Below, piece by piece: positions 26,111 through 39,606 of a stretch of DNA of 45,841 nucleotides. The stretch comes from Oscillospiraceae bacterium (lineage in GTDB: Bacteria; Bacillota; Clostridia; Oscillospirales; Oscillospiraceae). Made by a program: the position numbers and the translations under genes. Where the stretch lies: the NCBI GenBank assembly GCA_902798545.1, contig CADBWQ010000031.1, positions 1 through 45,841 of the forward strand. The letters run 5' to 3'. Position 1 is the first letter of the stretch. The number at the start of each line of letters is the position of its first letter. The notes beneath the pieces are model-generated. The model saw nothing but the letters and a program-made list of their open reading frames with translations. It ran no database searches and was not told where the DNA came from.

Positions 26111-27016
26111 ATGTCCTTTTCCTCAGACACAAAAGCAGAGCTCTGCGGCAGCCGGCTGGACCGGCGCACTCTTGCCGTCGCCGAATGCTATGGCGTCCTT
26201 CTCTACTGCAATACTTTCCGCGCCTCTGAGATCCGCATCATCACCGCTTCCGCGCCATTCGCCGAGCTGCTCCCCCGCCTGTTCAAAAAGGCCTTCTCTG
26301 TCAGCTTCGATCTGCTGCCTCCGGAGGATGCCAAAGGGAAGCGCAGTTTCTGCATCCATGAGCCGGAGAAGATTGCCCGGATTCTGGAGAGTTTCGGCGG
26401 TGACGCCGCCGGTCCCATCTCCCATCATGTGAATCTCGGTGTTCTGGAAGAACCGGGCTGCCCGGAGGCTTTTGCCAGGGGTGCCTTTCTCGCCGGCGGC
26501 AGCGTCACCGATCCGGAAAAGCGTTTTCATCTCGAACTCGCCACCAGTCATCACAGCGTCAGCCGGGAACTCCGCTCCATGCTCCTGGAGATGGATCTTG
26601 AGCCAAAGGAGGCTGACCGCGGCGCTCATTCCCTGCTTTATTTCAAGAAAGCGGATCAGATCTCCGATTTCCTCACCCGGATCGGTGCACACGTCGCTGC
26701 CATGAACATTCTGACCGCCAAGGTCGACAAGGAGATGCGCAATACTGTCACCCGGCAGATCAACTGCGATTCCGCAAACGCCGACAAGACGGTCTCTGCC
26801 GCCATCCGCCAGACTGAAGCCATCCGCCGCCTGATAAAGCGAGAAGGGCTGGATGCTCTGCCGGAAGCGCTCCGGGATGCCGCACTGCTGCGCCTGGCCA
26901 ATCCCGAAGCCAGCCTCGCGGACCTTGCTCTGCTCTCCAATCCCCCTGTGACCAAGAGCTGTCTGTCTCACCGTCTGAACAAGATCATTCTTCTCGCTGC
27001 AGAGGAGCCAACATGA
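26111..27016 (+). CDS. whiA: DNA-binding protein WhiA
   Basis: 301 residues. A LAGLIDADG-like fold opens with SFSSDTKAELC and includes ARGAFLAGGSVTDPEKRFHL. The C-terminal helix-turn-helix has ANADKTVSAAIRQTEAIRRL, LADLALLSNPPVTKSCLSHR and a final LNKI. WhiA controls division and chromosome-related genes in Gram-positives. AAGGAG lies upstream of the ATG at 26111. The stop overlaps the dnaE ATG (ATGA). The HPr/Crh-type gene sometimes found after whiA is absent here. Confidence 0.95.
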   Translation: MSFSSDTKAELCGSRLDRRTLAVAECYGVLLYCNTFRASEIRIITASAPFAELLPRLFKKAFSVSFDLLPPEDAKGKRSFCIHEPEKIARILESFGGDAAGPISHHVNLGVLEEPGCPEAFARGAFLAGGSVTDPEKRFHLELATSHHSVSRELRSMLLEMDLEPKEADRGAHSLLYFKKADQISDFLTRIGAHVAAMNILTAKVDKEMRNTVTRQINCDSANADKTVSAAIRQTEAIRRLIKREGLDALPEALRDAALLRLANPEASLADLALLSNPPVTKSCLSHRLNKIILLAAEEPT

Positions 27017-30000
27017 GTTTCGTTCACCTCCATGTGCATACCGAATATTCCCTGCTGGATGGCTTCTGCCGCATTGACCAGATTGCAAAGAAGGCAAAGT
27101 CTCTCGGCCAAAATGCCATTGCTATCACTGACCATGGTGTCATGTACGGTGCCGTGGCGTTTTACCGCGCCTGCATCAGGGAGGGTATCCGTCCCATCAT
27201 CGGCTGTGAAGTCTATGTCGCTCCGCGCACCCGTTTCCAGAAAGAGCACGGCATCGACAACAACTATTCTCATCTGATTCTGCTCTGTAAGGACGAGACC
27301 GGCTACCGCAATCTCTGTGCTTTGGTCAGCGCCGGCTTCACAGAGGGCTTCTACATCCGTCCCCGGATCGACTGGGAGCTGCTGAGCGCCCATGCCGAAG
27401 GCCTCATCTGTCTCTCCGGCTGCCTCGCGGGAGAGATTCCCCAGGCGATTCTGAACGGCAACGCTGCCAAGGCCAGAGAGCGTGCACTGAAGTTAAAGGA
27501 ACTCTTTGGTGAGGACTTCTTCCTGGAAATCCAGAACCATGACATTCCCGAGGAGCAGCGCGTCACCGAGGGGCTGGTGGCTCTCAGCCGGGAGACCGGA
27601 ATTCCTCTTGCGATGACCAATGACGCCCATTATCTGGAGAAGAGCGACGCCTATTACCAGGATGTCCTCATGTGCATCCAGACCGGCAAAACGGTCGATG
27701 AACCGAACCGCATGCGCTTTGAAACCCAGGAGTTCTACCTGAAGAGTGAGGCGGAGATGCGCAGTCTCTTCCCCGGCCTCTCCGAGGCTGCCGACAACAC
27801 CGTTGTCATCGCCGACCGCTGCCACTATGACTTTGAATTCGGCCACTATCACCTGCCCCGTTTCCGGCTTCCGAAGGGCGAGAGCGACAGCGCCGCCTAC
27901 CTCCGAAAGCTCTGCGAGCAGGGCTTTGCCGTGCGTTACCCTGATCGGCCTGAGGTTCACAGGCAGCTGGACTATGAGCTGGGAGTCATAGAAAAGATGG
28001 GCTTTGTGGACTACTTCCTCATCGTTTCCGACTTTATCGGCTATGCCAAGCGCAACGGCATCCCTGTCGGGCCCGGCCGCGGCAGTGCCGCCGGCAGTGT
28101 TGTGGCCTACTGTCTCTACATCACCGATGTTGATCCAATCAAGTATTCCCTGTTTTTTGAGCGCTTCCTGAATCCAGAGCGCGTCTCCATGCCCGATATC
28201 GACGTGGACTTCTGCGTCAACCGCCGCGGTGAGGTCATCGACTACGTCAACCGCTTCTATGGTGAGGACCACGTCGCTCAGATCGTTACCTTCGGAACCA
28301 TGGCGGCCCGTGCTGCCATCCGCGATGTCGGCCGTGTCCTGAACATCAGCTATGCCGAAACCGACGCTGTCGCCAAACAGGTTCCCACATCTCTGAACAT
28401 GACGCTGGACGAGGCCCTCCGTCTCTCCAAACCGCTGAAGGAATTCTACGACACCAACGAGAAGCTTCACACACTCATCGACGTCGCCCGCGCGCTGGAG
28501 GGCATGCCCCGGCACGCCTCGACTCACGCTGCCGGCGTCGTTATCACCGAGCGCCCGGTCAAGGATTACGTCCCCCTCGCCAAAAACGATGAGTCTGTCG
28601 TCTGCCAGTATCCCATGACCACTCTGGAGGAATTGGGCTTACTGAAAATGGACTTCCTTGGCCTGCGGAACCTCACCGTACTCGAGGACGCCGCCCAGCT
28701 GGTCCGCCAGAAAGAGCCTGGTTTCCGTGTGGAAGACATCCCCGAGGACGATCCAACGGTCTTTGAAATGCTGTCTGCCGGCCAGACGGAGGGTGTCTTC
28801 CAGATGGAGAGTGCCGGCATGACCGGCGTGTGTGTTCAGCTCCGGCCGAAGAGCATCGAAGACATCACCGCCATTGTCGCCCTGTACCGTCCCGGTCCCA
28901 TGGACAGCATCCCCCGGTTTATCGAATGCTCCCAGCATCCGGAGCATGTCACCTATAAGCATTCCCTGCTCCGTCCGATCCTTGAGGTCACCTATGGCTG
29001 CATTGTCTATCAGGAGCAGGTTATTGAGATTTTTCGCCAGCTGGCGGGCTTCTCCCTCGGGCAGGCGGATATGATCCGCCGTGCCATGAGCAAGAAAAAG
29101 CACGCCGTCATTGATGCAGAACGGGTGGCTTTTGTCCACGGGGACCCGAAGCGTGGGATTGCCGGCGCGGTGGCTAACGGCGTTCCGGAGGCGGTTGCCA
29201 ACAGCATCTATGACGAGATTCTGGACTTTGCGAGCTATGCCTTCAACAAGGCCCATGCCGTCTGCTACGCCATTGTCGCCTATCGCACCGCCTATATGAA
29301 GAAGCACTACCCCGGCGAGTATATGGCGGCGCTTCTCTCCTCTGTTCTCGACAATGGGCAGAAGATTGCCGAATACACTGCCGAGTGCCGGGAGCTCGGG
29401 CTCTCGCTCCTGCCTCCGGATGTTAATGAGTCCCGGTCCGGCTTCTCCGTCTCCGGTGGGAACATCCGCTTCGGTCTCGCCGCCATCAAGGGCATCGGCC
29501 GAAGTGCTGTGGCCCAGCTTGAAGCCGAGCGCAGGACTGCCGGTCCCTTCCGCAGCTTTGAAGATTTTCTTCGCCGTATGAACGACAAGGACTTCAACCG
29601 TCGCGCGGTGGAAAATCTGATCCGGGCAGGCGGTTTCGACTCCTTCGGCTACAAGCGTAAGGCGCTGGTCTCAGTCGCCGGCTCCATGATCGACAGCATC
29701 AGTCGTGAAAAACGTGACAACATCTCCGGGCAGATTGACCTCTTCGGCGGCTGGGGCGACGAAGAAGCAGAGGACAGCGGGGACAGTCTCCCGATCCCGG
29801 ATATGGAGGACTATTCTCCCCGGGAACGCATGGCCATGGAAAAGGAGATGACCGGCCTTTATCTCAGCGGTCATCCCATGGATGAATACCGCACCGCCGT
29901 GCGGCGGGTGGGTGCGGTCCCCCTCGGGGCAATCCTTTCGGATTTTGCCTCTGAAGAAGGACCTCAGGCCTTCTCAGACAACCAGACCGTCACCGTCGCC

Positions 30001-30531
30001 GGCGTTATTGATTCCCATCGAACGCGTACCACCAAGAACAACTCCCTTATGTGCTATGTCCAGCTGGAGGACGACAGCGGCACCCTGGAACTTATCGTTT
30101 TCCAGAAGGCATTGGATCTGTGCGGCTCGTACATTGTCGACAACCAGGCTGTTCTTGTCCGCGGAAAGATCTCTGTCCGGGACGAAAAAGAAGCCCAGAT
30201 CATGGTCGATTCCATCCGTCCTCTCTCCGATCTGAACGCTCCCGGCAGTGTGCCTGCACAGGAGCAGTCTTCCCGGAGTCATACGCCTGTTTCTCCCGTA
30301 TCCCGCCCCGCTCCCACCCCGGCGCAGAAGCTTTATATCAAGGTTCCTTCCAAGGATGACCCTGTGTTCAGACGCATCACGCTGATCCTTACCATGTTTC
30401 CCGGCAACGGCTCCCTGATCATCTGGTGTGAGAAGGAGAAAAAGAAACTCGGCACCCGCTGCCTGCTGCACGAAGGTCTGATTCTCGAGCTGCAGGAGCT
30501 CCTGGGTGAAGAAAACGTCGTCCTGAAGTAG
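27013..30531 (+). CDS. dnaE: DNA polymerase III subunit alpha
   Basis: 1172 residues, normal length. The PHP domain opens VHLHVHTEYSLLDGFCRIDQ. The polymerase core shows GPGRGSAAGSVVAYCL, the catalytic pair in MPDIDVDFC, LLKMDFLGLRNLTVLED and ALYRPGPMDSIPRFIE. Helix-hairpin-helix motifs follow, then an OB-fold near residue 1000 (QTVTVAGVIDSHRTRTTKNN, YVQLEDDSGTLELIVF). It elongates DNA in the replisome; Bacillota also carry PolC, which is not in this window. The start overlaps the whiA stop. Confidence 0.97.
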   Translation: MSFVHLHVHTEYSLLDGFCRIDQIAKKAKSLGQNAIAITDHGVMYGAVAFYRACIREGIRPIIGCEVYVAPRTRFQKEHGIDNNYSHLILLCKDETGYRNLCALVSAGFTEGFYIRPRIDWELLSAHAEGLICLSGCLAGEIPQAILNGNAAKARERALKLKELFGEDFFLEIQNHDIPEEQRVTEGLVALSRETGIPLAMTNDAHYLEKSDAYYQDVLMCIQTGKTVDEPNRMRFETQEFYLKSEAEMRSLFPGLSEAADNTVVIADRCHYDFEFGHYHLPRFRLPKGESDSAAYLRKLCEQGFAVRYPDRPEVHRQLDYELGVIEKMGFVDYFLIVSDFIGYAKRNGIPVGPGRGSAAGSVVAYCLYITDVDPIKYSLFFERFLNPERVSMPDIDVDFCVNRRGEVIDYVNRFYGEDHVAQIVTFGTMAARAAIRDVGRVLNISYAETDAVAKQVPTSLNMTLDEALRLSKPLKEFYDTNEKLHTLIDVARALEGMPRHASTHAAGVVITERPVKDYVPLAKNDESVVCQYPMTTLEELGLLKMDFLGLRNLTVLEDAAQLVRQKEPGFRVEDIPEDDPTVFEMLSAGQTEGVFQMESAGMTGVCVQLRPKSIEDITAIVALYRPGPMDSIPRFIECSQHPEHVTYKHSLLRPILEVTYGCIVYQEQVIEIFRQLAGFSLGQADMIRRAMSKKKHAVIDAERVAFVHGDPKRGIAGAVANGVPEAVANSIYDEILDFASYAFNKAHAVCYAIVAYRTAYMKKHYPGEYMAALLSSVLDNGQKIAEYTAECRELGLSLLPPDVNESRSGFSVSGGNIRFGLAAIKGIGRSAVAQLEAERRTAGPFRSFEDFLRRMNDKDFNRRAVENLIRAGGFDSFGYKRKALVSVAGSMIDSISREKRDNISGQIDLFGGWGDEEAEDSGDSLPIPDMEDYSPRERMAMEKEMTGLYLSGHPMDEYRTAVRRVGAVPLGAILSDFASEEGPQAFSDNQTVTVAGVIDSHRTRTTKNNSLMCYVQLEDDSGTLELIVFQKALDLCGSYIVDNQAVLVRGKISVRDEKEAQIMVDSIRPLSDLNAPGSVPAQEQSSRSHTPVSPVSRPAPTPAQKLYIKVPSKDDPVFRRITLILTMFPGNGSLIIWCEKEKKKLGTRCLLHEGLILELQELLGEENVVLK

Positions 30532-30546
30532 GCTGCCCGCAGAACA

Positions 30547-30592
30547 TACACATCCCCCGATCCTGAAACCTGCCAGGATCGGGGGATGTGTA
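30547..30592. terminator. Bidirectional hairpin between dnaE and the convergent dehydrogenase
   Basis: Arms 30547-30565 and 30574-30592 pair perfectly over 19 bases (TACACATCCCCCGATCCTG) with an 8-base loop. T tracts are weak on both sides, but the stem is very strong. Confidence 0.8.
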
Positions 30593-30602
30593 CTGTTTCG
30601 TG

Positions 30603-31958
30603 TTATGGTTCAAATGCGCGTTCGATAATCTGCGCTGAGAGTTTCTCCGTCAGACCGAGATCATAGACCAGCTGCAGCAGCGTATACCGGTCGCGTGTCT
30701 CCTTGGCATAGAACAGGGTATCTCTCAGGAGCGCTCTGTCGATGCCGATTTCCGCCGGCGTGCAGGGGCTGCCCACCTTTCTGAGGAGGCTCTGCAATTC
30801 TCCGGCTTTCGGGAGTGTCTCCAGCTGCTTCAGAATCTCATTCCAGTGCGCTTCAATCCGATCGATGCGCTCAAGGCGCTCCGGCACGGCGTTCTTCCGC
30901 GCTTTCTTCTCCAGGTCCAGGACTTCCTGCGCCGCACTGCCGTAGCAGCGGTGGATCTCCTGTTCCCATGCCGCCTCGTCGAAGCTTTTGGCAATCGCTC
31001 TTGCCGCATCGAAGTCGACCGCCGTCTTCTTCAGTGCCTCTGCCAGCATCAGGACAAGCACCGTCCCGACCGCGACCTGTTCGCCGTGCATGGCACCCTG
31101 GGTTCCGCGTTCCTCGTTCACCACCTCCCAGAAGTGGGACATGTGATGCTCCGCGCCCGAAGCCGGCCGGGAGGAACCGTAGAGACTGATGGCCGCACCG
31201 GAGAGGACCAGGCCCTCCATAACGCTGCCAAGGACTTCCGGATCGCGCTCGGCGATCCGCGGTGCCTTCTTCAGCACGCTGTCCAGACAGTTTTCTGTCA
31301 GCGCCACGATGTTGGCGCAGTAGTGCTCCCCGTTGATGATTCTTGCCAGCTTCCAGTCGTTCAGACAGGTGACTTTTCCGATCAGGTCACCAAAGCCCGC
31401 CACCGTCATGCGGTATGGCGCGTTCTTCAGGATGTCTGTGTCTCCAATGATGAGTTCCGTGCAGTGGGCCGGCATGGTTTTCTTGAGTCCGCCGACGTTC
31501 ATGATGCCGACGCTCGCGGCGAAACCATCCATTGGCGCTCCCGTCGCGATTGTAAAGCAGGGCAGCCCGAGACGGAAGCTGGAGTATCGGGTCATATCCG
31601 TGATGGAACCGGTGCCGACCCCGATCATGAGATCCGCATCACCCGGGACACTCACGACGATCTCTCCCAGCGTGGCCTCATCAAAGCCGGTATGCTGCAG
31701 CACATGAGTATACGGCTCGATCCCCGCCCCGGTCAGGGCTTCGGCACAGCGCTGCCCGGCAATCTTCCATGTGATCTCATCACAGAGAATATAGGGTCTG
31801 CGGTACGCAAAACGCTGTACATACGCTGGCAGGGTATCAAGCACGCCGGAACCGATCTCCACCGCACGGATTGGCACATAGTGCCGCCGTCCGCAGTCAC
31901 AGTCCAGTTCGACGCCGAGATACTTCTCCAGGGGCTGCGGTTGCTGATACATTTTCAA
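30603..31958 (-). CDS. sn-glycerol-1-phosphate dehydrogenase (AraM type), paralogue 1
   Basis: 451 residues, the iron-containing-alcohol-dehydrogenase-like fold of AraM/EgsA. An N-terminal CDCGRRH motif is followed by IEPYTH. The NAD site is GVGTGSITDMTRYSS, then TGAPMDGFAASVG. Metal ligands are Asp in VAGFGDLIGKVTCLND, His in ASGAEHHMSHFWE and His in AMHGEQVAVGT. The reaction is G1P + NAD(P)+ to dihydroxyacetone phosphate. The TTG at 31958 sits 8 bases after a GGAGG (31971-31967); the ATG at 31952 is 14 bases away, so TTG is preferred. It is the last gene of the cluster, after a terminator-like hairpin downstream of the binding-protein gene. About 100 C-terminal residues exceed paralogue 2 in spacing. 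Confidence 0.87.
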   Translation of the reverse strand: MKMYQQPQPLEKYLGVELDCDCGRRHYVPIRAVEIGSGVLDTLPAYVQRFAYRRPYILCDEITWKIAGQRCAEALTGAGIEPYTHVLQHTGFDEATLGEIVVSVPGDADLMIGVGTGSITDMTRYSSFRLGLPCFTIATGAPMDGFAASVGIMNVGGLKKTMPAHCTELIIGDTDILKNAPYRMTVAGFGDLIGKVTCLNDWKLARIINGEHYCANIVALTENCLDSVLKKAPRIAERDPEVLGSVMEGLVLSGAAISLYGSSRPASGAEHHMSHFWEVVNEERGTQGAMHGEQVAVGTVLVLMLAEALKKTAVDFDAARAIAKSFDEAAWEQEIHRCYGSAAQEVLDLEKKARKNAVPERLERIDRIEAHWNEILKQLETLPKAGELQSLLRKVGSPCTPAEIGIDRALLRDTLFYAKETRDRYTLLQLVYDLGLTEKLSAQIIERAFEP

Positions 31959-31971
31959 TATTTATTCCTCC

Positions 31972-32002
31972 AAAAAACGTAAGGCCGCAGAAGCGGCCTT
32001 AC
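31972..32002 (-). terminator. Hairpin with T tract between binding protein and dehydrogenase genes
   Basis: GTAAGGCCGC (31979-31988) and GCGGCCTTAC (31993-32002) are perfect arms with an AGAA loop. On the minus strand TTTTTTGG follows, immediately joined to the GGAGG of the dehydrogenase gene. It probably attenuates, leaving more binding-protein mRNA than enzyme mRNA. Confidence 0.8.
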
Positions 32003-32025
32003 AGGAATCGTTATGCTGCGGGAAA

Positions 32026-33063
32026 TTATCCCTGGATCTGACCGACGAGCTCGTTCCAGTGCTCAAGCAGCTCGGCCTTTCTCTCGATCAGCTCATTGAC
32101 AGGACGGGGAACCCAGGTCATGTCGGCGGAAGCCTCGAGCCATGCGCCTTCGGGAACGACATAGTTGGCATTGGTGAGGCGCAGCGTGCCTTCTTCGTAC
32201 TCGGCGATGGCGGTCTGGCCTTCGGCGGAGGTCATGAAGTTGACCAGGGCTTCAGCAGCGGCGCGGTGCGGGCAGTTCTTCACGATGGCCATGCCGTAAG
32301 CCGCAGCGGAAGTGCCCTCGGTGGGATAACGGACCTCGGTGGTGGTAGAGCCGTTCTGGTTCAGCTTGATGGCGCCGTCTTCGTAGGTGAGACCGACGAC
32401 ATACTCACCGTCATAGACGGAGTTGAAGCAGACAGAGGACTTCTCAACAACAACCATGTTCTCCAGGAGCTTGCTGATATAGTCCCAGGCTTCATCGGTG
32501 CCGACACCGAAGACGGAAAAGATGTTGCAGAGGTTGTTCCATGCGGCGGAGGAGCTGTTCGGGTCGGAGATGACGATCTTGCCCTTCAGAGCCGGATCCA
32601 GCAGGTCTGCATAGGAACGGATGTCGAGGCCCAGCTCTTCCTCGAGTTCGGTGTTGACGCAGAAGCAGACGGTGGACAGGTGGTCCATGCTGTAGAATCC
32701 GTTCGGAGTGGAGTAGCCTTCCATGGCCTCGTCGTTGTGGATGGAAACCCATTTCTCGAAGAGGGCCTCATGGGTCATGCCGTCGCTGTCGCAGAGGCCG
32801 CCCCAGGTCACGTCGCCCTGCGGGTTGTCGGCTTCAGCGGCGATACGGGAGGTATACTCACCGACGCTGCCGGAAACGACTTCGATCTCAACATCAGGAT
32901 AGACTTCGTTGAAGCAGGTCTCGAGCGCTTCCAGGTCGAACTCCGTCATGGAAGAGTAGAGGACCAGCGGGCCGCTGACTTCTTCGTCATCCGCGGCGTA
33001 GGCGGGCACGGCCAGTGCGAAGGCCATGCACAGTGCGAGAATCAGTGCGAGTACTTTTTTCAT
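32026..33063 (-). CDS. Extracellular substrate-binding protein of AfuA/FbpA-like importer
   Basis: 345 residues. Signal peptide KKVLALILALCMAFALAVPA, cleaved near AYAADDEE; LALC does not meet the lipobox rule. The mature part opens LVLYSSMTEFDLEALETCF and has the hinge and ligand-loop patterns GDVTWGG, YADLLDPALKGKIVISDP, EYVVGLTYEDGA and VRYPTEGTSAAAYGMAIVKN of the family that includes iron, hexose-phosphate (AfuA) and aminoethylphosphonate binders. The Tyr-Tyr pair that holds ferric iron in FbpA is not visible, which argues for a non-iron ligand. AAGGAG precedes the ATG at 33063. It lies downstream of its permease. Confidence 0.88.
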   Translation of the reverse strand: MKKVLALILALCMAFALAVPAYAADDEEVSGPLVLYSSMTEFDLEALETCFNEVYPDVEIEVVSGSVGEYTSRIAAEADNPQGDVTWGGLCDSDGMTHEALFEKWVSIHNDEAMEGYSTPNGFYSMDHLSTVCFCVNTELEEELGLDIRSYADLLDPALKGKIVISDPNSSSAAWNNLCNIFSVFGVGTDEAWDYISKLLENMVVVEKSSVCFNSVYDGEYVVGLTYEDGAIKLNQNGSTTTEVRYPTEGTSAAAYGMAIVKNCPHRAAAEALVNFMTSAEGQTAIAEYEEGTLRLTNANYVVPEGAWLEASADMTWVPRPVNELIERKAELLEHWNELVGQIQG

Positions 33064-33160
33064 GCTTTTTCTCCTTGTATGAAATATTTATTTCTTAAAT
33101 CCCCGCAGGGATAATAAGACGAAAAGAGATTTCTGCAGTGTGGAGGTCACCCGTGCAGAA

Positions 33161-34813
33161 TCAAAGCTGGATATCGTCCTCCGACTTGCTGATGGCCATG
33201 TACAGGAAGAGGGAAATGGCCGTGATCACCGTCAGGATGGCAGCGAAGGCGGCGGCAGTTCCGTACTCACCGCGGCCGATGTAAATATAGGCCTGCATGG
33301 TCAGCGTCGCGGTCTTGTTGCTGTACAGGATGACAGAGCTGGAGAGTTCGGTCACGATGGCAACCCAGCTGAGGATGGCGCCGGAGATAATGCCGTTGGA
33401 CATCATGGGGACGGTGATTTTTGTAAAGGTCTTCAGCTTGGAGGCGCCGAGGCTGACGGCGGCCTCTTCAATGCTGATGGGGATCTGCATCAGTGTTGCC
33501 GTCGCCGAACGGATCGTATACGGCATTCTTCGTATGGCAAATGACATGATCATGATGGTCATGGTACCGGTCAGAGCAAAGGGCTTGGCGCCGTAGGCGA
33601 TCAGCAGTGCGATACCGATGACGGCACCGGGCATGATGTAGGGCAGCATGGAGATGGTGTCCAGCGTGTGGTTCAGGGCACTGCTGCGGCGCACCACCAG
33701 ATAGGCGAGGATGACGGCGATCACGATGATGATGAGAAGCGCCAGGACGCCCATCACCACAGTGTTCTTAGAGGCCATCCATAGCTTTTTCTTAATGGCC
33801 TGCTGGTAGTTGCCGAGGGAGAAACCGGGGCTGAATACCGCGCCTCTGCACTTGCGGAAGGACAGATAGATGATGTAGATCTGCGGCAGGAACGCAATCG
33901 CGCAGAGCAGATAGCAGTAGAGGTGCATCAGAAATCCGCCGAAGCCCTTGGCGGGCTTCTTCTCCACGGGGTGCAGGGCGTTGATGGAGAACTTGAAGCG
34001 GCTGGTCGCCCACTTCTGCAGGAAGAAAATGACGGCGGTCACAATGACGGCGATTACGGCCAGGGCCGCGGCGAAGTTGTAATCGCTGCCGTTTTCACCC
34101 AGGTACTCATTGTAGAGGAGCACCGGGAAGGTCTTGAAGCCTTCGCCCAGAACAGTCGGCGTACCGAAGTCTGCGAACGCCTGCATGAAAACCATCAGGG
34201 AGGCCGCAAGGATTGTCGGCATGGTCAGATTCAGGACAATGTTGAACAGCCGCTTCACACCGACGCAGCCCATGTTGGAAGAGGCCTCCATCAGGGTGTT
34301 GTCGATGCTCTTGAAAGCGCCGTTCATGTAGATGAACACCAGCGGGAAGAACTTCAGTGTCTGGGACAGGGCAATACCGCCGAAGCCGTAGATGCTGGGC
34401 AGGCGGATGCCGAATGCGGACTTGAAGAATTTCGTGATGACGCCGGCGCGGCCCAGAAGCATGACCCAGGAATATGCGCCCAGGAACGGGGCGGACATGC
34501 AGCAGAGAATGCTGATGACAAAGAGGATCTTCGCACCCTTCAGGCGGTAAAATGCATAGAAATAGGCAAAGGGGATTCCGATGAGCAGGGTCATGAAGGT
34601 CACGAAAAAGGTGATCTTAAAGCTGTTGACAATCGTCTTGGAGTAATAGCTCTGGCCGAAGAACTTCTGGAACTGGGACCAGGAGAAGCTGCCGTCCGGC
34701 ATGATGACCGACTGCTTGATGATGCCGAACATCGGGTAAATCAGAACCGCGATGAACAGCAGAAGCATTACGATGGATACGATGAACCATCCGTCAAAGC
34801 GTTTCTTTACCAT
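33161..34813 (-). CDS. Two-domain ABC permease (AfuB/FbpB-like)
   Basis: 550 residues forming two fused permease halves of about six helices each. Each has an EAA coupling loop: EASSNMGCVGVKRLFNIVLN in the first half and EEAAVSLGASKLKTFTKITV in the second. Fused permeases of this form serve Fe3+, hexose-phosphate and aminoethylphosphonate importers. GGGGGAAAC precedes the ATG at 34813, 14 bases after the ATPase stop. It forms the membrane channel with the binding protein and ATPase encoded on either side. Confidence 0.92.
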   Translation of the reverse strand: MVKKRFDGWFIVSIVMLLLFIAVLIYPMFGIIKQSVIMPDGSFSWSQFQKFFGQSYYSKTIVNSFKITFFVTFMTLLIGIPFAYFYAFYRLKGAKILFVISILCCMSAPFLGAYSWVMLLGRAGVITKFFKSAFGIRLPSIYGFGGIALSQTLKFFPLVFIYMNGAFKSIDNTLMEASSNMGCVGVKRLFNIVLNLTMPTILAASLMVFMQAFADFGTPTVLGEGFKTFPVLLYNEYLGENGSDYNFAAALAVIAVIVTAVIFFLQKWATSRFKFSINALHPVEKKPAKGFGGFLMHLYCYLLCAIAFLPQIYIIYLSFRKCRGAVFSPGFSLGNYQQAIKKKLWMASKNTVVMGVLALLIIIVIAVILAYLVVRRSSALNHTLDTISMLPYIMPGAVIGIALLIAYGAKPFALTGTMTIMIMSFAIRRMPYTIRSATATLMQIPISIEEAAVSLGASKLKTFTKITVPMMSNGIISGAILSWVAIVTELSSSVILYSNKTATLTMQAYIYIGRGEYGTAAAFAAILTVITAISLFLYMAISKSEDDIQL

Positions 34814-34827
34814 GGCGTTTCCCCCGC

Positions 34828-35943
34828 TCAGTCCTCAGGACGGTCGTTGTGAACACCGGTCAGAATGTTCTCGCTGCCGTCCTCAGTGAAGACGTTGACC
34901 TTTTCCGTGTTCAGTGTCAGCATGATCTTGGAACCTGGTTCGATGATGCTGTCAATGGAGGACTCCTGGATAATCTCCACTTCCTCGCCCGAAGTCAGAT
35001 GGACGAAGTAGTGAGTGTTCAGGCCGAGGAACACACAGTCATCCACGACGGCCTCGATGCCTTGTGTCGCGTCGCGGTCCAGCAGGAACTCTTCCGGTCG
35101 GATGGAGAGAACCACATTCTGGTTCTTCCTGTGTTCCTCGCGTACGCCCTTAATCTCAGCCCTGTAACCGCTCTTGGTCACGATAAAGGTCTTGCCGTTT
35201 TCGACCTGGAGGGTACCATTGAGGATGTTGGAGCGGCCGATAAAGGTGGAGACAAAGAGGTTGGCCGGCCGCTGATAGATGGCCTTCGGCGTTCCAATCT
35301 GCTGGATCACTCCGGCGTTCATAACGGCGATGCGGTCGGAGACCGCCATGGCCTCTTCCTGGTCATGAGTGACATAGACCGTGGTAATGCCGACGTTGTG
35401 CTGGATATTCTTGATAACGGTACGCATCTCCACGCGGAGCTTGGCGTCCAGGTTGGAGAGCGGTTCATCCATCAGAAGCACGTCTGGCTCAATGCAGAGC
35501 GCACGGGCCAGAGCGACACGCTGCTGCTGGCCGCCGGAGAGCCGCTCCGGCATGCGGTCGGCGTACTGGTCGATCTGCATCAGCTTCATGAATTTCTCAG
35601 ACTGTTCCTTGATCTTCTCCTTGGGGAACTTCTTGTTCTTCAGGCCGAATTCCACGTTCTTGCGCACGGTATAGTGCGGGAAGATGGCGTAGTTCTGGAA
35701 AACCATACCGATGTTGCGCTTGGACGGGTCAAGGTCGTTGATTCTCTTGTCCCCGAAATAGAAATCGCCGCCCTCAATGCTGTTGAACCCTGCGATCATG
35801 CGCAGCAGTGTGGTCTTCCCGCAGCCGGAGGGTCCCAGAAGGGTGAAGAACTCACCTTCCTTGATCTCTACGCTCAGGTCGGGAATCACGACGTTTTCTC
35901 CGTATTTCTTGACTGCTTTTCTAATAGAAATGTTGTTGCTCAC
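34828..35943 (-). CDS. ABC importer ATP-binding protein (PotA/FbpC/UgpC-like)
   Basis: 371 residues. Walker A GPSGCGKTTLLRMIAG, signature LSGGQQQRVALARALCIEP, Walker B VLLMDEPLSNLDAKLRVEMR and His in YVTHDQEEAM. A C-terminal TOBE/OB domain of about 130 residues (SIRPEEFLLD) is typical of importers of the MalK/PotA branch. The start is GTG at 35943 with GAGGAG 9 bases upstream. It is the second gene of the operon after dehydrogenase paralogue 2. Confidence 0.93.
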   Translation of the reverse strand: MSNNISIRKAVKKYGENVVIPDLSVEIKEGEFFTLLGPSGCGKTTLLRMIAGFNSIEGGDFYFGDKRINDLDPSKRNIGMVFQNYAIFPHYTVRKNVEFGLKNKKFPKEKIKEQSEKFMKLMQIDQYADRMPERLSGGQQQRVALARALCIEPDVLLMDEPLSNLDAKLRVEMRTVIKNIQHNVGITTVYVTHDQEEAMAVSDRIAVMNAGVIQQIGTPKAIYQRPANLFVSTFIGRSNILNGTLQVENGKTFIVTKSGYRAEIKGVREEHRKNQNVVLSIRPEEFLLDRDATQGIEAVVDDCVFLGLNTHYFVHLTSGEEVEIIQESSIDSIIEPGSKIMLTLNTEKVNVFTEDGSENILTGVHNDRPED

Positions 35944-35985
35944 GACACTCGCTCCTCTATATCTTCATTTTCCGTTACCTGGAAT

Positions 35986-37242
35986 TCAGGACAGCTTGAG
36001 CATGCGCCTCGTGCGCATGAGGGTGAGCCGGTTTCGGACCGACGGGGAATGTTGGACGAGGACCGGGAGCAGTTCTTCCGGCACCCCGATATCTGAGAGG
36101 GATCTTTTTGCCCCAAGCTTTTCAAACTTTTCGTATATTTCTTCTTCCGAAGGGATTTCCGCGATGATTTCCCGGATTTTCGGCCAGGCCTTCACAATGG
36201 CCTCCGGCGTGACTGCGGCAAGGCAGTCGTTTCTGTTCTCCTCCACGGCTGTCGGATAGAGCCTCTCGCCGTAGAAGCTCCGGATCCATCCGTCGTCCAG
36301 GGGCTCATAACCCTTTACCAGATCAGAGATGTCTTCGATCTCCGCCATCTGGTGGTAAACCCGGGAGGCGATCAGCGTGCCGACGCCAACCTTCTCTCCG
36401 TGCAGGGCAGGGCTGTTCACACCGCCGAGCCCGTCAGGTCTCATCTCGATGAGGTGCGAAATGTGGTGTTCCGCACCGGAGGCAGGGCGTGAATTGCCCA
36501 TCATCTGCATGGCCAGGCCGCTCATCAGCAGCCCGTACATCACCGACTCAAACGCGTCCACATCCCCGTCCAGCGTATCCAGACAGGAATCCCAGATCTT
36601 CGCCACGGCATCCTTCATAATGTCGTAGATCACCGGGCAGACGGCTTCTCCCGTGAGTTCGTGCGCGATTCTCCAGTCGGACAGCGCAATGAACTTGCCG
36701 AGGACATCTCCGACACCGCTGGCAGTGAGATACGCCGGTGCCCTGGAGATCACGTCAAGGTCCGCGACCACGATCAGCGGTGCAACAGCATTGATGGTTT
36801 TCTTATACCCCTTCCAGGTCATGGCGGCCACTGCCGAGCAGAATCCGTCCACACTCGCTGCCGTCGGCAGTGCCACGAAGGGGATTCCCCGCTCTGCAGC
36901 GCAGTAGCGGACCGTGTCGTGGATTGAGCCGCTGCCGCAGGCCAAGAGCAGCTCCACATTGCTGTCGAGCTGCCGGAGGACTTCTGCCGTAGAGTTTTCG
37001 TCTGCATGCAGTCCTTCTGACTGCAGGATGATCTCCTGTTCCGCTTTCGGATGGGTAAAAAGCGGATTGCTCCAGGTGTTGCTGCCATAGACGGCACAGC
37101 GTTTTCCGTCGATGCCCTCCTGTTCGAGGATCTCGTCCAGGCGTTTCAATATGCCGGATTCGATGATACAGGTCCGGGTGGCCATGTGATGTTCTTTTCC
37201 GCACTTGCAGAGTCCGCCGTATTTCCCGCTGTCAATCCGCAT
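35986..37242 (-). CDS. sn-glycerol-1-phosphate dehydrogenase (AraM type), paralogue 2
   Basis: 418 residues. N-terminal CKCGKEHHMATRTCIIESG, NAD-site ACGSGSIHDTVRYCAAERG, then PTAASVDGFCS. The metal ligands of the fold are present: Asp in ASGVGDVLGKFIALSD, His in ASGAEHHISHLIE and His in ALHGEKVGVGT. The three metal residues and the CxCGxxH head match paralogue 1, but the rest is well diverged, so this is not a recent duplicate. It is the first gene of the operon, behind an exact consensus promoter, followed by the importer genes. A role in oxidising the imported compound or its product is inferred. Other polyol phosphates cannot be excluded. Confidence 0.86.
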   Translation of the reverse strand: MRIDSGKYGGLCKCGKEHHMATRTCIIESGILKRLDEILEQEGIDGKRCAVYGSNTWSNPLFTHPKAEQEIILQSEGLHADENSTAEVLRQLDSNVELLLACGSGSIHDTVRYCAAERGIPFVALPTAASVDGFCSAVAAMTWKGYKKTINAVAPLIVVADLDVISRAPAYLTASGVGDVLGKFIALSDWRIAHELTGEAVCPVIYDIMKDAVAKIWDSCLDTLDGDVDAFESVMYGLLMSGLAMQMMGNSRPASGAEHHISHLIEMRPDGLGGVNSPALHGEKVGVGTLIASRVYHQMAEIEDISDLVKGYEPLDDGWIRSFYGERLYPTAVEENRNDCLAAVTPEAIVKAWPKIREIIAEIPSEEEIYEKFEKLGAKRSLSDIGVPEELLPVLVQHSPSVRNRLTLMRTRRMLKLS

Positions 37243-37295
37243 AGATCAGAGCCTCTTTTTGTTCAGTTTGTATAAATAGTTCAAATTATGAATAG

Positions 37296-37324
37296 ATTAT
37301 AAATGATACTTTCGTTGGTGTCAA
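37296..37324 (-). promoter_or_regulatory. Exact-consensus sigma-70 promoter of the dehydrogenase-importer operon
   Basis: On the minus strand TTGACA (37324-37319), a 17-base spacer and TATAAT (37301-37296) match the consensus at all twelve positions. Transcription would start about 45 bases before the ATG at 37242. An imperfect inverted repeat (TATAAATAGTTC against GAATAGATTATA, 37271-37301) overlaps the -10 and could bind a regulator. Confidence 0.85.
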
Positions 37325-37403
37325 CCAAAAACGCATGAATCTCGGATGCGAGTTCTGTTCAGGTGTGAAACCGCTTGTTTCTGCATCTTCGATCCTTTTC
37401 CGG

Positions 37404-38111
37404 TCACAGATCTCTCAGCAGTTCCGAAACCCGACGATAGTCCGGGACTACGCGGAAAGCGAAGTCCGAACGGTACACCGCCTCATCGTTTCCGCCGTGG
37501 CCGTAGTCATCCCCTGCATAAAGGATCTCTTCATGGCTGTATCCCTCGTTCTGGCAGAATTGGTCCAGTGCGTAGTACTTGTTGTAGGGCAGAGGCGCAA
37601 AGTCGAAGGACGAAGACCCGCCCACAAACACCGTGTACTCCGGGAAAAGCTCACATACCTCGTCATAGAATACGAGGCGTTTCTTTCTGTCTGGGTCGAA
37701 GGCGAGTTTATCCCGGATATCCGCCTTTGTCCCCAGCAGTGGGAAGGTCACGCAGCCTGAATCGTGAAACTCCACCCCATCACCGGTGAATTCAGTATAC
37801 CCGTGTTTCTCCCGGAGCCTGGCAATTCGCTCTGCAACGCTTTTCCGGTCTGCGGGGACGCGATTGTCGAACACCGCCCTGTGTGACTGTGTGCCCGGGT
37901 CATAGCGGTAGTATTGCATGCCATAGTTCCCGATCACGTCGATCGGGAAGTTCTCGATCTGCCGCAGGATCCGCGGGCAGTTGCCCGCCCCGACAATCAC
38001 AACTCTGTATTTCCGGCGCAGCCGGTCCAGCAGCTCCCTGCTCGCCTCCGGCAGAGGTGTCCGGTGCTGGGTAAGAGTTCCGTCCAGATCAAATCCGATG
38101 ACCTTCAGCAT
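37404..38111 (-). CDS. HAD family phosphatase (HAD-IIB/phosphomannomutase-like)
   Basis: 235 residues. Motif I FDLDGTLTQHR gives the nucleophile and acid Asp pair. VVIVGAGNCPRILRQIENFP carries the second motif region, the cap lies in the middle (IDVIGNYGMQYYRYDPG), and AGDDYGHGGNDEAVY is motif IV for Mg2+. The cap type and length resemble Cof or phosphomannomutase-like sugar phosphatases. AGGAGG precedes the ATG at 38111. It lies upstream of, and is separated by about 160 bases from, the strong promoter of the dehydrogenase-importer operon, so it is probably a neighbour transcription unit. Action on a sugar or polyol phosphate is inferred. Confidence 0.85.
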   Translation of the reverse strand: MLKVIGFDLDGTLTQHRTPLPEASRELLDRLRRKYRVVIVGAGNCPRILRQIENFPIDVIGNYGMQYYRYDPGTQSHRAVFDNRVPADRKSVAERIARLREKHGYTEFTGDGVEFHDSGCVTFPLLGTKADIRDKLAFDPDRKKRLVFYDEVCELFPEYTVFVGGSSSFDFAPLPYNKYYALDQFCQNEGYSHEEILYAGDDYGHGGNDEAVYRSDFAFRVVPDYRRVSELLRDL

Positions 38112-38138
38112 TGTCGAAATCCTCCTGTCCGTGTTTTG

Positions 38139-38531
38139 TCAATATACTTCCTGCTCCACGACGCATTCGCTCTTGATCGTTCCGACGAGCGCCTGCAGCG
38201 CATCGATCACATGCGGACGGATATCGCCGCCCACCAGGACATACATGATGTCGTCCCCGAGGCTGAGTTCTCCCTCGTTGAGCCAGACCCGGATATAGAA
38301 GATGCCTTCCATCTGTCTGACCGCTTCGACGGCCCGGTCGACCTTCTCCGCATCATAGCGGAAAATCATGCCCGTAACGGTTTCTGTGGCCTGCTTTCCC
38401 TGCCGGACCTTCGCCCTTGCCGTCTGTCGGACCGTTCCGTTGTGAACCAGAAACATGCCGCAGTCCGCTGCCGCAGGATCCGCTTTTGCCTCTTTCAGCC
38501 ACTGATCCATGGATGGAGATTCCTTTTTCAT
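38139..38531 (-). CDS. MoaE-like protein (molybdopterin synthase large-subunit family)
   Basis: 130 residues. SPSMDQWLKEAKADPAAADC, GMFLVHNGTVRQTARAKVRQ, VTGMIFRYDAEKVD, IFYIRVWLNEGELSLGDD and VLVGGDIRPHVIDAL follow the MoaE fold as found in clostridial genomes. MoaE proper transfers sulfur to precursor Z in molybdopterin synthesis. No other molybdenum cofactor gene is in the window, so this stand-alone member may have another role. The ATG at 38531 is followed 27 bases after its stop by the HAD gene, suggesting co-transcription. Confidence 0.75.
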   Translation of the reverse strand: MKKESPSMDQWLKEAKADPAAADCGMFLVHNGTVRQTARAKVRQGKQATETVTGMIFRYDAEKVDRAVEAVRQMEGIFYIRVWLNEGELSLGDDIMYVLVGGDIRPHVIDALQALVGTIKSECVVEQEVY

Positions 38532-38706
38532 ATCTGTCTGCCTCCGTTTTTCATGATTTCCTGTATTCAGTATACACGGAAAACAGTCGATTCACAAGCG
38601 TATTATTCCCTTGACACAGCGCCGCAGACTGATGTATTCTTGCAGGCGGACGGCAGCTCTTCCTGCCGTGCCATTACTCTGCAGCTGATACCGGAAGTGA
38701 TATGAT

Positions 38707-39606
38707 ATGCCAAAAAAAGGATCCCCTGCCCTCGGCCCTGCGCTCATCATCCTGGCCGGCATTTTTTGGGGCAGCATGGGCATCTTTGTCCGCAGGCTCA
38801 GTACCTTCGGCTTTAATTCCATCCAGATCGTGTGCATCCGTGTTACAATCGCTGCCCTGGTTTTCTGTCTTGTCCTGCTTCTGAAGGACCCGACCGGTTT
38901 CCGGATTTCTCTGGGGGATCTGCCGCTCTTCCTCGGTCTCGGCCTCGGGAGCGTTCTGGTCTTCACTGTCTGCTATTTTACTGCCATCTCGATGATGTCC
39001 CTTTCCACCGCGGCAATCCTGCTCTACACCTCTCCGATCTGGATTATGCTGATGTCGGTCCTGTTCTTCCATGAGAAGCTGACCTCGCGGAAACTCCTTG
39101 CACTGGTCTTGGCCTTTGGCGGCTGTGTGCTGGTCTCCGGCATTTCCGGCGGCGGACTCACCCCCGCCGGACTTCTCATCGGTCTCGGCTCGGGCATCGG
39201 TTACGGGCTCTACAGTATTCTTGGCACCGTTGCCCTGCGGCGCTATTCCCCATATACTGTCACGACCTGGACATTTCTGTTCGCCGCCATTGGTTCTCTG
39301 CTCATCAGCCATCCGGCGGACATCGCCGCGAAGATTTCCGCCGCCCCATCCGTGGGCGGGCTGTTGCTCTTCTGTCTGCTGACCGCGCTGGTGACAGCTG
39401 TTGTGCCCTTCCTCGCCTACACGCTCGGCCTGCGTTCCGTCGAGGCCAGCAAAGCCGGTATTCTCGCCACCATCGAACCCATGGTTGCCACCCTGATCGG
39501 TATTCTTGTCTTTTCCGAGCCCATGACGCTTTCTTCGGGCATCGGCATGCTTATGATCCTCATCGCTGTCATTTTGCTGAATATGCCCTCAAAAGCCTCG
39601 GTTTAA
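38707..39606 (+). CDS. EamA (DMT) family transporter
   Basis: 299 residues with ten predicted helices in two EamA repeats, from ALIILAGIFWGSMGIFVRRL to SSGIGMLMILIAVILLN. The end of the second repeat has EASKAGILATIEPMVATLIG, the usual EamA phrase. Members export metabolites such as amino acids or act as antiporters. The substrate is unknown. GGAAG precedes the ATG at 38707. It is divergent from the MoaE-like gene. Confidence 0.92.
   Translation: MPKKGSPALGPALIILAGIFWGSMGIFVRRLSTFGFNSIQIVCIRVTIAALVFCLVLLLKDPTGFRISLGDLPLFLGLGLGSVLVFTVCYFTAISMMSLSTAAILLYTSPIWIMLMSVLFFHEKLTSRKLLALVLAFGGCVLVSGISGGGLTPAGLLIGLGSGIGYGLYSILGTVALRRYSPYTVTTWTFLFAAIGSLLISHPADIAAKISAAPSVGGLLLFCLLTALVTAVVPFLAYTLGLRSVEASKAGILATIEPMVATLIGILVFSEPMTLSSGIGMLMILIAVILLNMPSKASV

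Follow-up and report, generated by a model that had tools for sequence, protein, structure and literature searches.

A clostridial gene cassette joining an AfuA-type importer to AraM-type dehydrogenases likely imports and oxidizes a phosphorylated polyol

Introduction

What does a bacterium import through an ABC transporter whose genes lie between those of two dehydrogenases of the sn-glycerol-1-phosphate (G1P) dehydrogenase family, and what becomes of it in the cytoplasm? The question is raised by a six-gene cassette in contig CADBWQ010000031.1 of an Oscillospiraceae bacterium (assembly GCA_902798545.1), of which positions 1–45,841 form the window, the whole stretch of DNA analyzed here (45,841 nucleotides). 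Six open frames on the minus strand encode, in order of transcription, a HAD protein, a first AraM-type dehydrogenase (DH1), an ATPase, a fused permease, a binding protein, and a second AraM-type dehydrogenase (DH2); Pfam and NCBIfam back every one of these assignments. A sequence-only reading had described two AraM-type dehydrogenases flanking an importer in one orientation with a HAD gene upstream, and the frames and family matches agree with that layout. The source genome is a 3.0-Mb draft of 50 contigs, 91.8% complete, and its close relatives include uncultured Clostridia from the ruminant gut, among them L009 (roe deer abomasum) and L011 (goat reticulum).

The genes, their conserved linkage, the subgroup of the binding protein, and the residue patterns presented below were established by computation. 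The cassette likely takes up a phosphorylated polyol and oxidizes it. Our tentative choice is a catabolic uptake system with glycerol phosphate as the most likely ligand, oxidized to dihydroxyacetone phosphate (DHAP). Glycerol phosphate is only narrowly ahead of pentitol phosphate as the ligand, and neither is proven.

Results

Binding protein

By sequence, the nearest solved relatives of the binding protein are AfuA (E 7e-26), 8x1a (a Vibrio glucose-6-phosphate (G6P)-binding protein according to its title), 6lki and 6lkg (which we take to be HptA), and P5PA. The entry 4r6y, deposited as binding 2-aminoethylphosphonate (AEP), and binders of iron or citrate rank later. A structural model was built from 33 aligned rows (predicted local distance difference test 92.7), and in a fold search with this model AfuA, VcA0625, P5PA, and 6lkg took ranks 1–8, 4r6y took rank 9, and ferric binders came lower. 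Judged by sequence and predicted fold, the binding protein is nearer to organophosphate binders than to phosphonate or iron binders.

Iron and AEP were the two ligands that the sequence-only reading had set against its own proposal, and organophosphate binders come ahead of both in sequence and in fold. An importer for either one, with the AraM-type genes as incidental neighbors, would fit the names of the best NCBIfam families (PhnS2/PhnU2) and the several solved relatives named as iron transporters. This explanation is highly improbable. The models for the aminoethylphosphonate binders PhnS and PhnS2, TIGR03261 and TIGR03227, are both under cut-off, at 125 versus 393 bits for PhnS2 and 53 versus 395 bits. 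Ferric binding proteins carry a Tyr-Tyr iron pair, and the segment GLTYEDG of the binding protein has a single Tyr (FbpA itself was left out of the alignment), in line with the earlier statement that the pair is lacking. The order of folds and the co-occurrence of the importer with the HAD gene in genomes of the genus (see below) also speak against it. No Pfam match was found to the PhnD-type family, that of GpxB; the only matches were to SBP_bac_8, 6, 11, and 1 at E up to 0.001, and GpxB was not in the alignment.

The residues around the phosphate in AfuA have been described (PMC4546632, PMC8427247), and the binding protein keeps them only in part, three of these contacts being lost in the window (see below). 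At the positions of AfuA Ser148 and Gly38 the residue is unchanged in all 33 rows, and at those of Gly149 and Gly185 it is Ser in all 33. Of our two alignments, neither retains AfuA His205 or Glu229, both reported as required for sugar binding (PMC4546632), and one has a match to Asp206. The most natural reading of this pattern is that the predicted ligand is a phosphate ester with a tail unlike that bound by AfuA.

An AfuABC-like uptake of hexose or heptose phosphates, with a phosphoglucomutase-like HAD protein and the dehydrogenases as side activities, would account for G6P and fructose-6-phosphate binders being the nearest folds, and for the relatives of the HAD protein described below. It leaves the repeated linkage to AraM-type genes unexplained, and with His205 and Glu229 gone, we consider it quite unlikely.

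The signal type, judged by eye, varies among relatives of the binding protein: the window has an AxA-type signal, versus a lipobox-like Cys in L011, L012, L013, L068, and L071. Anchoring thus appears to differ between these proteins.

HAD protein and its partners

The HAD protein is of the HAD-IIB type (TIGR01484, 55.5 bits versus a cut-off of 41.8) and passes the phosphomannomutase (PMM) model PF03332 (31.5 versus 22.4 bits). Its DxD and GDD motifs (D8, D10, G200, D201, and D202) are invariant in 37 rows. The nearest solved relatives in both sequence and fold searches are Lactococcus alpha-phosphoglucomutase (4bnd) and, after it, eukaryotic phosphomannomutases, which does not bear out the earlier label of HAD phosphatase; going by these predicted relationships, the protein could act as a mutase and not as a phosphatase.

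Matches to the HAD protein occur in 27 of the 391 genomes of the class, and 23 genomes (the source genome included) have one that is at least 53% identical. We surveyed 26 loci, comprising 22 of the 23 loci at that level of identity outside the source genome (the G347 locus was left out) and four more. Neighbors were taken from our own open reading frame calls, scored by codon use, which dropped some genes (for example, the DeoR gene of L132), so neighbor counts may be low. Labels were checked on examples for AraA, AraD, ribulokinase, GlpK, NagD, GatZ, RhaB, 6-phosphogluconate dehydrogenase, DeoR, GmhA, and glycerophosphodiesterase (GDPD); those for aldo-keto reductase (AKR), sulfatase, EamA, UlaE, and Ldh2 represent a reading of the sequence.

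An importer of this kind was found within three genes of the HAD gene at none of the 26 loci away from the cassette. An AraM-type gene was found within that distance, away from the importer, at 18 of the 26. The rough chance expectation per locus is 0.6% for AraM and 0.9% for GDPD, figures that assume 2100 genes, two AraM genes per genome, and 84 GDPD genes in 28 genomes (the listing sums to 83) and that ignore kinship. Also within three genes were a DeoR regulator (13 loci), GDPD (five loci, three families), a NagD-like gene (two), AraD (one), and ribulokinase (one); examples of GDPD and DeoR were confirmed by Pfam. At one locus (L186) the neighbors include a NagD-like gene and two flavoproteins, one of which has type 2 glycerol-3-phosphate (G3P) oxidase and GlpA as its closest families but scores below the cut-off of each.

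The AraM partner of the HAD gene belongs to clade DH3 away from the importer and to DH1 in this genus. As these are separate clades (see below), the HAD gene has been paired with two different clades of AraM-type enzyme, and the pairing across loci indicates a single pathway. The GDPD, NagD-like, and GlpA-like neighbors favor glycerol phosphate as the compound handled.

Dehydrogenases

DH1 and DH2 match PF13685 with 94.0 and 84.3 bits, respectively (cut-off 28), and are 28% identical to each other over 434 columns. The nearest solved relatives of both are G1P dehydrogenases. Alignment with these agrees with the earlier statement that both proteins keep the Asp/His/His positions, presumably the metal ligands; in DH2 they are kept in 17 of 17 rows. 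Ten residues of the solved G1P dehydrogenases (T127, S130, D132, S136, R252, S255, E258, H259, H263, and H281) are kept in all 15 DH1 rows, across which the listed columns of the SRPASGxEH block are also invariant, except for P253 (0.93). The best-scoring NCBIfam family for DH1 is the G1P dehydrogenase equivalog NF002022, despite a score under its cut-off.

In a tree of 78 rows, separate clades are formed by DH2 (support 100/100, 16 rows), DH1 (87/92, 15 rows), DH1p (100/98), DH3 (100/100, 17 rows), and DH4; 9h4x and 3ce9 lie on long branches, and their placement was not used. DH1p is an AraM paralogue carried by most genomes of the genus. In three of six loci fetched (L139, L140, and L223), DH1p adjoins a glycerol kinase gene and a HAD-IIA (NagD-like) gene, a hint that it may take part in oxidizing glycerol phosphate. 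DH4, a further AraM-type clade (L141, L142, and L210), is linked to GatZ-like and AKR-like genes and, variously, to a PfkB-type kinase or rhamnulokinase gene.

Co-occurrence and gene order

Co-occurrence was followed in 91 genomes of the genus, with orthologues defined by identity thresholds; these are drafts, so absences are soft, and kinship was not corrected for. The binding protein is present in 12 genomes and the HAD protein in the same 12 (Fisher 3e-15). DH2 is found in those 12 and in three of the 79 others (Fisher 1e-12), and DH1 in eight of the 12 and in three of the 79 others (Fisher 8e-7). Gene order is shuffled across species, with HAD-DH1-ATPase-permease-binding protein-DH2, DH2-HAD-DH1-importer, and HAD-importer alone all occurring. 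Conserved linkage between importer and dehydrogenases had been named earlier as a test of the proposal, and the arrangement recurs in other species in shuffled order.

A paralogous importer, with a binding protein 34–35% identical, is linked to DH2 at L076, L077, and L078; a KpsF/GutQ-like isomerase gene is present at L076 and L078, and a GmhA-like gene at L076. In Treponema parvum (L014:9283-16144), an importer lies beside a distant AraM-type gene, SDR-like fragments, and sugar-kinase-like, sulfatase-like, and TctA-like genes (names assigned by eye).

Ligand source and direction of the reaction

The sequence-only reading had suggested archaeal lipids as the origin of the ligand. Lipoteichoic acid and the head group of phosphatidylglycerol are reported to contain sn-glycerol-1-phosphate (PMC7086022), so an archaeal source is unnecessary. 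PcrB had no match in the source genome or in 36 other genomes of the genus; across all 60 genomes searched, seven had a match, two of them over cut-off, and all lay outside the genus. There is thus no sign of ether-lipid synthesis, and the earlier argument that the lack of a PcrB-like synthase favors catabolism now extends from the window to the genomes of the genus that were searched.

The dehydrogenases might instead act reductively, converting DHAP to G1P for lipids of mixed chirality or, with the HAD protein as phosphatase, yielding glycerol and regenerating NAD. Bacillus AraM is reported to have G1P dehydrogenase activity (PMC5059525), and PlsY and PlsC to accept both stereo-forms of glycerol phosphate (PMC13400652). 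Besides the PcrB result, a reductive role leaves the linked importer, the DeoR-type regulators, and the GDPD neighbors unexplained, and we judge it very unlikely.

Glycerol phosphate or pentitol phosphate

A number of observations, in the proteins themselves and in their neighborhoods, weigh against glycerol phosphate. Three phosphate contacts of AfuA are lost in the window (Ser37 to Val, Thr60 to Leu, and Thr150 to Ala). DH1 and DH2 score 172 and 203 bits, respectively, with NF002022, versus a cut-off of 413; this model seems to be of archaeal type. In 4rgq, 5fb3, 9h4x, and 3ce9 a Ser precedes the metal Asp by two positions, and this Ser is replaced by Pro in 17 of 17 DH2 rows; this Ser (S130) is present in all DH1, DH1p, DH3, and DH4 rows (10 unplaced rows were left out). 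The position of S136, kept in DH1, is Ala in 94% of DH2 rows. Over the 43 columns common to three solved G1P dehydrogenases, the majority residue agrees in 33 for DH1 and 32 for DH2, so only single residues separate the two. We infer from these residues that DH1 is compatible with G1P and that DH2 has shifted to another substrate; action of both dehydrogenases on the same substrate, as first proposed, is not supported.

Linkage is also incomplete. No AraM-type gene lies within three genes of the HAD gene at eight of the 26 loci, and a DH1 relative at least 51% identical is missing from four of the 12 genomes that carry the importer and the HAD protein. Three of these four (G001, G024, and G088) have DH2 beside a paralogous importer, and the fourth (G056) has it elsewhere. 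GDPD was seen at none of the 14 loci with an importer of this type, and both GDPD genes of the source genome are on other contigs.

The remaining objections come from neighbors of the arabinose and polyol type. Relatives of DH1 (51–54% identical) occur with AraA and sugar kinase genes at L133 (sugar kinase, AraA, AraD, and DH1) and L134 (ribulokinase and AraA), and another lies beside a ribulokinase gene at L135. The L133 kinase scored 94 versus a cut-off of 380 for XylB, a label we therefore dropped; it is referred to only as a sugar kinase. AraD follows the importer at two of the 14 importer-type loci (L067 and L068), and at L067 it scores above the curated L-ribulose-5-phosphate 4-epimerase cut-off (407 versus 389 bits). 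Near DH2, among 16 loci of relatives at least 50% identical, a gene like KpsF/GutQ (arabinose-5-phosphate isomerase) is within three genes at six (L076, L078, L145, L205, L208, and L209), and one like MtlD (mannitol-1-phosphate dehydrogenase) at two (L206 and L209). AraA and the ribulokinases of L134 and L135 also pass curated cut-offs. At L132, a DH1 relative (54%) lies between AraD and GDPD, the second of which counts for glycerol phosphate; this AraD stays below the TIGR00760 cut-off (372 versus 389) but exceeds that of a subfamily model.

Together, these AraD, arabinose, isomerase, and MtlD-like neighbors favor pentitol or pentulose phosphates, above all for DH2. The importer might then carry a pentitol phosphate released from teichoic acids or from nucleotide debris, ribitol or arabinitol phosphate for example. 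DH1 and DH2 would oxidize it to pentulose phosphates, to be fed into the pentose phosphate pathway via AraD where present. The Pro of DH2 fits this account as well, and we hold it to be a real possibility. Against it, gene calls at the 14 importer-type loci included no AraA-, ribulokinase-, or XylB-like gene, AraD there is limited to the two loci named, and around the HAD gene GDPD and NagD exceed AraD and ribulokinase.

An apparent sign of a pentose phosphate ligand came from spirochaete metagenome-assembled genomes, in which a related importer lies between a DeoR regulator and 6-phosphogluconate dehydrogenase (L023, L025, L029, and L031), with a Cof-type HAD gene at three of the four loci; L024 and L026 end too soon to show the dehydrogenase, and the L031 binding protein, split in frame, was left out of the alignment. 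We rejected this linkage as evidence for a pentose ligand, because the pocket differs in the alignable binding proteins of L023–L026 and L029 (His to Gly, and Glu-Asp to Asp-Asn). On this residue pattern, the importers of L023, L025, and L029 probably take another phosphate ester.

The three lost AfuA contacts and the L067 AraD above its cut-off lower the odds of glycerol phosphate and raise those of pentitol and hexose phosphates. The phosphorylated glycerol-like solute of the sequence-only reading thus stands in part: the organophosphate type of the binding protein and the linkage of HAD, AraM, and GDPD genes speak for it, and the arabinose neighbors and the lost Ser of DH2 speak against G1P as the ligand.

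Proposed pathway

With glycerol phosphate retained as the tentative choice, we infer the direction of transport, the ligand, the reactions, the role of the HAD protein, and the division of labor between DH1 and DH2 as follows. The binding protein would capture a small phosphate monoester, which the ABC importer would deliver to the cytoplasm with its phosphate intact. DH1, as a metal-dependent and NAD(P)-linked enzyme, would oxidize the secondary alcohol to a keto-phosphate. If the ligand is sn-glycerol-1-phosphate, or if G1P and G3P are both taken regardless of chirality (as for GpxB and UgpB), the product would be DHAP, which would enter glycolysis. Possible sources are bacterial phosphatidylglycerol and lipoteichoic acid and also archaeal lipids. 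The PMM-type HAD protein may be a phosphatase or phosphomutase for this phosphate ester or for one closely related to it, and DH2 may oxidize a second, related polyol phosphate.

A wider proposal can be framed, although we think it unlikely in its entirety: sn-glycerol-1-phosphate salvage would be widespread in Clostridia, based on an AraM-type dehydrogenase and a PMM-type HAD protein (a glycerol-phosphate phosphatase or mutase), with GDPD in some lineages. In this genus an AfuA-type importer, which would be the third class of bacterial G1P importer and independent of the other two, would extend the route to gut lipoteichoic acid, phosphatidylglycerol, and archaeal lipids.

Organization of the cassette

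Coordinates of the six genes and of nearby signals are collected in the table. DH2 has an ATG two codons inside its listed TTG start. Pattern scans found six promoter-like sites versus 3.3 expected in shuffles, only one of which scores 12/12, and 10 terminator-like sites versus 6.9 expected. These scans suggest that DH1, ATPase, permease, and binding protein probably form one transcript from which DH2 is partly uncoupled, and that expression of DH2 may depend on read-through past the hairpin that precedes it. Rfam gave no match at gathering scores across positions 30400–38800.

Table. Features of the cassette (window coordinates)
Feature	Position	Strand	Basis
HAD-IIB protein, phosphomannomutase / alpha-phosphoglucomutase type, 235 aa	37404..38111	-	Pfam/NCBIfam; sequence and fold searches
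Sigma-70-type promoter match, TTGACA-17-TATAAT, 12/12	37296..37324	-	Pattern scan; 53 bases upstream of DH1
DH1, AraM/EgsA-type (G1P dehydrogenase family) dehydrogenase, 418 aa	35986..37242	-	PF13685
ABC transporter ATPase, 371 aa	34828..35943	-	ABC_tran and TOBE_2
Fused ABC permease, 550 aa	33161..34813	-	Two BPD_transp_1 halves
Substrate-binding protein, 345 aa, AxA-type signal peptide	32026..33063	-	SBP_bac_8, 6, 11, 1; nearest the AfuA / VcA0625 / P5PA organophosphate-binding group
Terminator-like hairpin then TTTTTT, gap between binding protein and DH2	31978..32003	-	Pattern scan
DH2, diverged second AraM-type dehydrogenase, 451 aa from listed TTG	30603..31958	-	PF13685
19-pair hairpin between convergent dnaE and DH2 ends	30547..30592	.	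Pattern scan; possibly a shared terminator

A MoaE-domain gene (130 aa, window 38139-38531) lies on the same strand 27 bases upstream of the HAD gene and was seen at none of the 13 other importer-type loci. In the sister species L009 (1-10671, compared with window 27013-38111), the cassette is inverted beside dnaE. Identity between the two differs from gene to gene, at 99% for the permease, 98% for the binding protein, and 94% for the ATPase versus 84% for DH1, 82% for the HAD protein, and 80% for DH2, which suggests recombination of the importer core.

Comparison with known systems

The Bacillus subtilis arabinose operon has the order araABDLMNPQ, and its AraL is a NagD-type HAD phosphatase. 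The window resembles it in having an AraM-type dehydrogenase near a HAD gene, and relatives of DH1 occur with arabinose genes in related genomes. Unlike that operon, the window has a HAD protein of PMM type, no ara genes in the cluster, and another importer family. The HAD protein in turn is best matched in sequence and fold by Lactococcus alpha-phosphoglucomutase and PMM1/2, with which it shares a GxKA..K.A.DPD..KR block, but its identity in the fold search is 24% and its gene is tied to dehydrogenase genes.

Each part belongs to a known kind, but in the open-license literature searched we found no report that combines AraM-type dehydrogenases with an AfuA-type importer, and none of the HAD-AraM pair. 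Known substrates of AfuA-type importers are hexose and heptose phosphates and pyridoxal-5'-phosphate (PMC4546632, PMC8427247). The window importer resembles AfuABC of Actinobacillus, VcA0625, and HptA in having these as its nearest binding-protein folds, in keeping Ser148 and Gly38, and in being an ABC importer of the kind reported to take up an intact phosphate ester (PMC4546632). It differs from them in the loss of Ser37, Thr60, and Thr150, in the loss of two or more of the three sugar residues, and in its linkage to AraM-type dehydrogenases and a PMM-type HAD protein. P5PA, from the pyridoxal-5'-phosphate importer of Pasteurellaceae, falls into one subgroup with the window binding protein, to which it is 24% identical in the fold search, but its Tyr103 and His203 (PMC8427247) map via AfuA to His and to Asp or Glu in the window, and the neighboring genes are others.

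Archaeal lipids are built on a G1P backbone, and G1P is also the unit of bacterial lipoteichoic acid. Uptake of glycerol phosphates by this cassette would add a third importer family, give AraM-type enzymes a catabolic role, and name a PMM-type HAD protein as their partner; a pentitol phosphate ligand would mean a new use of the AraM family. Bacterial uptake of G1P and growth on it are reported for the marine GpxB and UgpB systems, in a December 2025 paper according to which no earlier G1P transporter was on record (PMC12718374) and whose main text names neither AraM nor EgsA. The ligand and purpose of those G1P/G3P systems may be shared by the cassette, but GpxB (3.A.1.9) and UgpB (3.A.1.1) belong to families (PMC12718374) other than that of the window binding protein, with its SBP_bac_8/6/11/1 matches and AfuA folds.

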